A DNA stretch of 64,000 bases. Origin: Prochlorococcus sp. AG-402-L09 (GTDB taxonomy: Bacteria > Cyanobacteriota > Cyanobacteriia > PCC-6307 > Cyanobiaceae). The position numbers and the translations under genes were made by a program. Positions 23,508-28,715 of the stretch are shown here, in pieces. Below the pieces are notes generated by a model that had not been told where the DNA came from, ran no database searches, and saw only the letters and a program-made list of their open reading frames with translations. Every line of letters starts with the position of its first letter. Positions within the stretch are counted from its first letter, which is position 1. Location of the stretch: positions 1-64,000 of the forward strand of contig QCIK01000005.1 of assembly GCA_003216715.1 (NCBI GenBank), given 5' to 3'.

Positions 23508-23583
23508 AACTAACAGGACAACTCCTCACACAATCGTTCTGTTAAAAAAAGCACCCAACTTCTTGTAAGCAGGGTGCTTTTTA
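23508..23583 (+). ncRNA. yfr1: Yfr1-type cyanobacterial sRNA
   Basis: Contains ACTCCTCACAC (23521-23531) in a 16-nt loop closed by AACAGGAC/GTTCTGTT, followed by AAAAAGCACCC...GGGTGCTTTTT terminator. Confidence 0.8.
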
Positions 23584-23880
23584 AATGATTAATTGTACCC
23601 ATGGTAAATATGGGAATCAGAAACTACTCTGCTCATACTTGAGAGTATTGCTTCAAAAGCATGTTTGAAATTTGTAGAGAGTTAGATTTTCCGAAGTGGA
23701 AACAAGCAAGTCATTAATACTGAGCTCTAAAAAATAGCCCTATGCCCAACAAACAAGGCTGTTATTGTTTTTATTTTTGATCTAGAAAAAGAAATGCAAG
23801 CACCAAGCAATCAGAACGGTTTTCTTTACAATCTTTAAGCTAAAATCTTTAATAAATCAATTATTATTGGACTTTATCCA

Positions 23881-24847: not shown

Positions 24848-26425
24848 ATGAATGAATCTGAGAAAATAAAAGAAGTAAGAAAGCAAGCTAGTGAAATAAA
24901 AACATTTACAGTTCCATCTGCTCTAGTAGAAATTAAAGAAAATATTTCTATTTCTTCCAATACTCATTCTCAATCTGCTAAGCAAGAAATAATTAACCAG
25001 GCATTTAAGTTTCATGGAGAAGGAAACATTACTGAAGCAGCAAAATATTATAAATCATTTATTGATCAAGGCTTTAAACATCATATAGTGTTTTCTAATT
25101 ATGGAGCAATTTTAAAGGCTTTAGGTAAATCACAAGAAGCCGAAAAATCATATAGGCAAGCTATAGAATGTAATCCTAATTTCGCACAAGCTTATGCCAA
25201 TCTTGGAAACACTCTAAGGGATCTGGGGAAATTACAAGAAGCCGAAATATCAACACGTAAGGCTATTGAGCTTAATTCTAATTACGCAAAAGCACATTCT
25301 AATCTTGGAAATATATTGAGAGATCTTGGAAACCTAAAAGAAGCAGAAAAGTCCTATCTCAAAGCAATTGATCTGAAACCTGATTTTGCTAATGCGTATT
25401 CTAGTCTTGGATTATTACATCTACAAAAACATGAGCACGAATTATCATTAAAATATTTTTCAGAAAGTTGTGAATTACTTAGAGGAGTAAACAATAAAGA
25501 ATATACTAATAAAAGGTTTACAAGAATTAGCCAGGTTAAAATAAAACATGATATTGAACAATTTGAATATTTAGCATCTCAAAGTTACGATACTAAAAAA
25601 TATACTCAGCTTGCTATTCTTTATAAAAAAGTTGCCTCCGAAATTCATTGGCCATCGATAAATGCATTAGTTCTTTTAAATGATAAACATATCAACCTTC
25701 TAAAAGATAGTTATAATCGTTTATTAAATCAAAGAAATACTTCTATATTAAAAGAGGAAGCAGTTAATAACCTATTAGATGTTGATAAAATTACAAGCAA
25801 TTATTTTGACCATGATTTTGGATTAACTTACATTGATAATTTCTTAAGCAGTGCCGCTCTTGAATCTCTTCGACAATTTCTCCTTGAAAGTACAATTTGG
25901 TTTGACGTCAGAGAAAATGGATATCTCGGAGCGTATTTAAAAGAAGGTTTAGCTAATCCTTTAATTTTTCAGATAGCAGATGAACTTAGAAAAAAATTTC
26001 CAAAAATATTTTTGGATTATCCTATCAATCAAATATGGGCTTTCAAATATGATAACAGTGCAAAAAAGAAAAATTCATCTCTGAAAGGCATCAATGTTCA
26101 CGCAGATTTCGCCGCTATAAATGTCAATTTTTGGATTACTCCTAAGGAAGCAAACTTAAATCCTCAGTCTGGTGGATTAATCGTTTATGACGTAGAAGCA
26201 CCAAAAGATTGGGATTTTAAAACTTATAATCATGATGAGAAACGAATCAGAAAAGAACTAGAGAAAAGCCAAGGAAATACACATGTTATACCTTATAACG
26301 AAAATCGCGCTGTCGTCTTCAATTCAAATTTATTTCATGAAACTGATGATTATGAATTTCAAGAGGGCTATGAGAATCGTCGAATTAATGTCACGATATT
26401 ATTTGGAGAAAGAAGTAAAAGTTAA
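24848..26425 (+). CDS. TPR protein with C-terminal 2OG-Fe(II) oxygenase-like domain
   Basis: TPR units NLGNTLRDLGKLQEAEISTRKAIELN; C-terminal HADFAAINVNFWITP...GGLIVYD...NSNLFHETDDY...NRRINVTILFGER. Confidence 0.82.
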   Translation: MNESEKIKEVRKQASEIKTFTVPSALVEIKENISISSNTHSQSAKQEIINQAFKFHGEGNITEAAKYYKSFIDQGFKHHIVFSNYGAILKALGKSQEAEKSYRQAIECNPNFAQAYANLGNTLRDLGKLQEAEISTRKAIELNSNYAKAHSNLGNILRDLGNLKEAEKSYLKAIDLKPDFANAYSSLGLLHLQKHEHELSLKYFSESCELLRGVNNKEYTNKRFTRISQVKIKHDIEQFEYLASQSYDTKKYTQLAILYKKVASEIHWPSINALVLLNDKHINLLKDSYNRLLNQRNTSILKEEAVNNLLDVDKITSNYFDHDFGLTYIDNFLSSAALESLRQFLLESTIWFDVRENGYLGAYLKEGLANPLIFQIADELRKKFPKIFLDYPINQIWAFKYDNSAKKKNSSLKGINVHADFAAINVNFWITPKEANLNPQSGGLIVYDVEAPKDWDFKTYNHDEKRIRKELEKSQGNTHVIPYNENRAVVFNSNLFHETDDYEFQEGYENRRINVTILFGERSKS

Positions 26426-27696: not shown

Positions 27697-27824
27697 TGGA
27701 TCTGAACTATTTTTTAATACTTGATATTGTGTATCAAATGATAACTTGATTATTCTACTCTTTTTGGAACACTAAAAATAGGTACTTTTTCTGTTGATTT
27801 TCTTTTTGGTCGAATTAAAAAGTT

Positions 27825-27912
27825 AATAACAGAACAACTTCTCACACATTAGTTTTGTGATCAAGAAAGACCCTCGATGCCACTTCTTCGCAGGGGGGTC
27901 TTTCTTGATGGA
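27825..27912 (+). ncRNA. second Yfr1-like sRNA candidate
   Basis: ACTTCTCACAC (27837-27847) in 16-nt loop closed by ACAGAAC/GTTTTGT; then 14-bp hairpin ATCAAGAAAGACCC/GGGTCTTTCTTGAT (27860-27909). Confidence 0.6.
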
Positions 27913-28715
27913 ATCAAAGGGAGTCCTTGGTAGAAAAATGAAACAATCATTTGACCGAACAGAGGAAAGTATTACTTTTATCTCTGTCGTAAGTAGCTAA
28001 GGATCCGCCAGTGAGTAGGTTGTTCCTTTTTCTCTGGCAATTGAAATGATTCCTCCATCGGGAATGACTTACACCAGCAATCAACCAATAAGAGAAGTAT
28101 TACCAACTCCAACAGGATGATTAGTCGCTCCTACTAGAGTTTTTTGTTTGTTCTTCATTCGAGATTCGTAATCTGTCATGGTTGCTCCGACTGTCTACAC
28201 ACAACTCTGGTATTGCACTGAGGAAGGTATCCCAACCAAATTAAAACACAAGATGATTGGACGATGAATCTGCTTATGAAACGTGGAACGAACTGCTATC
28301 AAATGATTGGGAATTATTAGAGCATCAAATCAATGCTGTCTCTTAGTATTTCATCAATACCTTTCTATTCACTACTCTGCAAAACGGATTTCTTGCTTTT
28401 GCAACTTGATCGGCATCCTCAAATCTATCTACATGAACTATTTCTTTGATGACCATCCCTCCAACGAAACAAGAAACTTCGACTTTCATTGTTGACCTCC
28501 TCCCGGTTTGGAATCAAGAGTTCATCTTTAATTGATATCTCTATGAAAACCCATTCACCTTTCTCAAGCAATAGAGCATCAGCATTACATCAATAATCAT
28601 TCTGTCAGGTTCTTTTTTGCTGTGTGCGAATCTTTTTGACAACGTCTACAAGATATACATTAAGGATATGATTGGATTTGTATTTATCCGGAACTAAAAT
28701 GAGGATTGCTTTTTG

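Follow-up and report, generated by a model that had tools for sequence, protein, structure and literature searches.

Is the small hairpin at 27829-27858 of this Prochlorococcus sp. AG-402-L09 sequence (contig QCIK01000005.1, positions 1 to 64,000, hereafter the window) a second copy of the small RNA (sRNA) Yfr1, as the initial annotation had it, and does the single altered base of its seed give it a target set of its own? Our analysis places the hairpin with Yfr10, and we consider it rather likely that 27829-27909 is a lone Yfr10-family paralogue, which we infer to be expressed, in a low-light-type Prochlorococcus. The locus is largely ordinary, that is, a member of a known sRNA class carrying a private seed variant for which Yfr12 is a published analogue.

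The layout of stem, 16-nt loop, stem and downstream hairpin that had been described here is indeed present (Table 1). The loop, AACTTCTCACACATTA (27836-27851, 16 nt), holds the motif ACTTCTCACAC at 27837-27847, and both the sequence and the predicted fold place this Yfr1 motif in the single-stranded loop; the downstream hairpin, given before as 14 bp, comes to 16 bp in the predicted fold. The locus is flanked by a gene for a 242-aa protein without Pfam match and by an ABC transporter gene. When the upstream sequences were compared, GAATTAAAAA within 27773-27828 was found to occupy the place of the GGAGTAGAAAA of other copies. No match to Rfam Cyano-1, which we take to be Yfr2 (a complementary GTGAGGAGTT motif in the Cyano-1 match supports this), was detected downstream of the hairpin at 27900-28300.

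Table 1. Coordinates in the window of the hairpin under study, its presumed signals and the related elements.
Feature	Position	Strand	Basis
Yfr10-type motif hairpin	27829-27858	+	7-bp stem ACAGAAC (27829-27835)/GTTTTGT (27852-27858), 16-nt loop; sequence and fold
C-to-T seed substitution	27840	+	Differs from the G005 ortholog and from 82 of the 84 strict genus copies
Putative terminator: 16-bp G+C-containing hairpin, interrupted T-tract (TTTCTT)	27860-27909	+	Fold
Putative promoter/leader	27773-27828	+	88% identity to G005
Second Yfr10-type hairpin, canonical ACTCCTCACAC at 23521-23531	23512-23543	+	RF02362, 39.5 bits; fold
Decayed Yfr2-like partner, TTTGTAGAGAGTT-AGATTTTCCGAAGTGGAAACAAG in place of TTTGTGAGGAGTTGAGATCCTCCGCAGTGGAAACAAG	23672-23770	+	Alignment with 12 intact Yfr2 copies

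The two candidate classes differ in where they hold the motif, which lies in a loop atop a stem in Yfr10 and single-stranded between two stem-loops in Yfr1 (PMC6778093, PMC2518516, PMC2190773). The 27829 and 23508 loci both carry it in a hairpin loop as Yfr10 does, and the true Yfr1 of relatives is built differently, so the Yfr1 label does not hold and these hairpin-loop copies are better called Yfr10 type. Six related near-complete genomes (G001-G003, G005-G007) have one true Yfr1 each, quite different in sequence, in which a 5' stem-loop (mostly GAGAGCCTTTGCTCTC) is followed by the single-stranded motif and then by a terminator; in G002 it lies between guaB and trxA (protein names by reading). 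Neither true Yfr1 nor guaB was found in the AG-402-L09 assembly, a draft of 43 contigs and 92.5% completeness, when it was searched at the DNA level with the Yfr1 region of G002 and at the protein level for guaB. As guaB itself is absent, the missing guaB-trxA/Yfr1 region is probably an assembly gap and cannot be claimed as a loss of Yfr1.

RF02362 (Yfr10) was the best Rfam family at both loci of the window, with 28.4 bits at 27829 and 39.5 at 23508; its gathering score is 43, which no match in the whole assembly reaches, including the copy that adjoins Yfr2. Yfr10, known from Prochlorococcus MED4 and also from SS120 and Synechococcus WH8102, likewise carries the motif in a stem-borne loop with a terminator hairpin after it, and is of similar length, about 80 nt (a discrete transcript of about 78 nt would be expected of a Yfr10). 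In high-light (HL) Prochlorococcus it is encoded just upstream of a Yfr2 homolog, a synteny that is not conserved among Yfr10 homologs (PMC6778093); a copy on contig C8 of this assembly has that position, whereas the 27829 copy has no Yfr2 beside it and differs from Yfr10 also by the C-to-U change, its ACUUCUCACAC agreeing with the ACUCCUCACAC motif at 10 of 11 bases. It is thus, judging by sequence, a Yfr10-type variant and not a strict Yfr10, since the published Yfr12 was kept in the same class despite two motif changes. Yfr12 of MED4, like the 27829 locus, is an additional Yfr10-like copy whose motif has undergone C-to-U transitions, two in its case (PMC2518516); the 27829 locus differs from it in having one change, inside CUCCU, and no Yfr2 homolog at its side.

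The sole clear ortholog was found in G005 (C1:1499033-1499172), flanked there by the same two genes, that for the 242-aa protein and that for the ABC transporter. Identity to G005 is 72% upstream, rises to 88% in the promoter/leader region and 93% in the hairpin, is 85% over 27859-27912, where G005 retains the terminator hairpin, and falls to 48% beyond, so that structure and presumed transcription signals look maintained. The two hairpins differ at the seed position 27840 and at 27855, where another C-to-T change turns a stem G-C pair into G.U, and the G005 motif is the canonical ACTCCTCACAC, with ACUCCUCACAC exact. On the basis of this one ortholog the simplest reading is a recent seed change, private to this lineage; because G005 is canonical and C is present in 82 of the 84 strict genus copies, it does not appear to mark a conserved second seed class.

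Those counts come from a search of 41 genomes of the genus with a strict hairpin pattern, which returned 84 copies in 36 genomes (0-4 per genome), 82 with ACTCC and two with ACTTC, namely the 27829 locus and one in G013. Similar loci are therefore spread over the genus, in support of the earlier view of an sRNA-like second locus sharing the Yfr1 motif, and when mismatches were allowed further copies with other single motif changes appeared, such as CTCATACA and CTCACAAA. A search of 400 family genomes for the T form with a TTYTGT stem again found it only in this genome and G013; the search pattern is tuned to this genus and therefore says little about others. By a looser pattern, which does not prove the hairpin, many other genera of the family have the canonical motif with possible 3' stem sequence after it. 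Across this Prochlorococcus genus, then, Yfr10-type sRNAs come in several copies, and a Yfr2 often follows them.

The stem was said to have kept pairing through substitutions. The substitutions quoted are real and the stem is maintained: over 43 distinct genus hairpins 95.1% of stem-pair cells are paired, and 15 cells are changed on both sides versus 6.8 in shuffles, neither value being reached in any of 500 shuffles. Of the 15 two-sided changes, 12 fall in the outermost pair; further in, compensatory changes are isolated.

We also calculated the pairing of the loop with Yfr2 of this genome, obtaining -18.1 kcal/mol with C and -15.2 with U (2.9 kcal/mol weaker), and -13.3 and -10.4 for the full-length interaction. 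The U forms a G.U pair with Yfr2, which weakens the pairing without abolishing it. Yfr2 of MED4 counteracts both Yfr1 and Yfr10, and the Yfr10-Yfr2 interaction as well as blocked RNase E cleavage of Yfr2 were shown in that strain (PMC6778093). Binding to ppa was lost when AAAA or UGGU took the place of UCCU in the motif (PMC6778093); a single C-to-U change should be milder, with wobble pairing kept. A compensatory change in the decayed Yfr2 at 23672 was sought and rejected, the duplex being -7.7 with C and -7.6 with U, no sign of co-evolution.

Put together, the short stem would present the Yfr1/Yfr10 motif in an open loop and the second hairpin would end the transcript; the loop would pair with GAGGAGU-type mRNA sites and also with the 5' motif of Yfr2, and Yfr2 would thereby titrate the sRNA in this strain too. 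In this lineage one loop C became U and one stem G-C pair became G.U, and the former change would turn one G-C pair with the usual partners into G.U, leaving pairing in place at lower strength. Since the usual partners would be met by a G.U, the 27829 copy is probably a mildly weakened, partly Yfr2-insulated version of Yfr10, with a presumed effect on targets, and is possibly drifting as one of several redundant copies. A natural C-to-U variant beside a canonical G005 ortholog offers a ready-made test of the role of this seed base in Yfr2 titration and target choice.

Several observations weigh against an expressed, lone Yfr10-family paralogue. Both copies in the window score below the Yfr10 gathering score; a simple terminator scan made no call at the hairpin 27860-27909, whose T-tract is interrupted; and no sigma-70 consensus promoter was found on the + strand near 27773-27828. 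The two C-to-T changes could include an amplification artefact in this fragmented draft of single-cell type, and they would also fit early decay with no remaining function.

Such decay, with the seed and stem changes as the first steps of loss in a copy comparable to MED4 Yfr12, is unlikely in our view but has several points in its favor: two C-to-T changes lie within 30 nt relative to G005, the neighbouring Yfr2 after 23508 has already decayed, other motif variants exist among the genus copies, and Yfr12 is a precedent for a mutated copy (PMC2518516). However, hairpin, promoter region and terminator hairpin are all closer to G005 than the flanks are, and the stem still closes in the predicted fold.

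That the U seed selects a new target set in a functionally diverged paralogue, the alternative specificity proposed by the initial annotation, seems quite improbable. Against a site with A opposite the changed base the U improves pairing from -14.7 to -19.2 kcal/mol, a gain confined to such sites, and the same change arose once more in G013; but the canonical base of the G005 ortholog and the restriction of U to those two strict copies, in the genus and in the family, argue against it, and the G013 copy differs in loop length and in the sequence of its downstream hairpin, so that its change is most simply read as independent. Still more doubtful is a U-seed paralogue acting as a Yfr2-insulated regulator with its own targets, for which strong Yfr2 pairing would be lost and the nearby Yfr2 is also decayed. 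A second copy of Yfr1 proper is hardly credible: 10 of 11 motif bases are common to both and the pairing chemistry is presumably the same, but the motif is inside a loop and not, as in Yfr1 of G001-G003 and G005-G007, unpaired between two stem-loops, and neither guaB nor trxA, the neighbours of Yfr1 in G002, flanks the locus.

The partner hairpin at 23508 was confirmed as described, its stem being 23512-23543, and is followed by a terminator-like hairpin that ends before about 23593. Many relatives have counterparts spaced similarly from the 242-aa gene, and in several of them an intact Yfr2 comes about 160 bp after the counterpart. In the window this place is taken by the decayed Yfr2, which gave no Rfam Cyano-1 match; its damage is in the 5' Yfr10-binding motif and the GTGGAAACAAG element is retained. 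The pattern ACTYCTCACAC has two sites in the window versus 0.04 expected from shuffles, none of which reached two, and five in the whole assembly. Three of these are in intergenic hairpins (23521, 27837 and C8:80669), all with the Yfr10 arrangement, and two inside open reading frames read as rhodanese-like and LarE-like. The third intergenic copy (C8:80658-80687, minus strand) is followed by an intact Yfr2 (Cyano-1, 64.9 bits); outside the window, this genome has Yfr2 genes above the Rfam cut-off on C8, C20 and C19.

The relatives recovered through the neighbouring 242-aa protein bear Prochlorococcus names and are single-cell or metagenome assemblies. At two loci among them, L050 and L053, a canonical Yfr10-type copy accompanied by Yfr2 lies upstream of that 242-aa gene, but these were rejected as same-place orthologs, as their flanks do not align. 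Neither the viral contigs, searched with the strict pattern, nor the phage records yielded a virus-borne copy. Next to the 27829 locus, about 500 bp (27947-28463) are without counterpart in G005, and 28079-28338 instead has its match (83%) in G005 about 1 kb away from a different Yfr10-type copy. The TPR-repeat gene at 24848-26425 resembles (~70-75%) several stretches, found both close to the Yfr10-Yfr2 locus of C8 and close to the G005 cluster, which suggests cassette shuffling around these sRNAs (L103, L100). Elsewhere in the genus, L042 (G037:C13) carries a tandem array of two Yfr10-Yfr2 units spaced by about 420 bp, and the same contig has another pair of Yfr10-type copies at a separate place. 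In L037 (G039:C6, 1509-2336) a stretch of about 830 bp holds three copies of the motif; the stem of one differs (CTAGGAC/GTCCTA), and another lacks an obvious motif stem.
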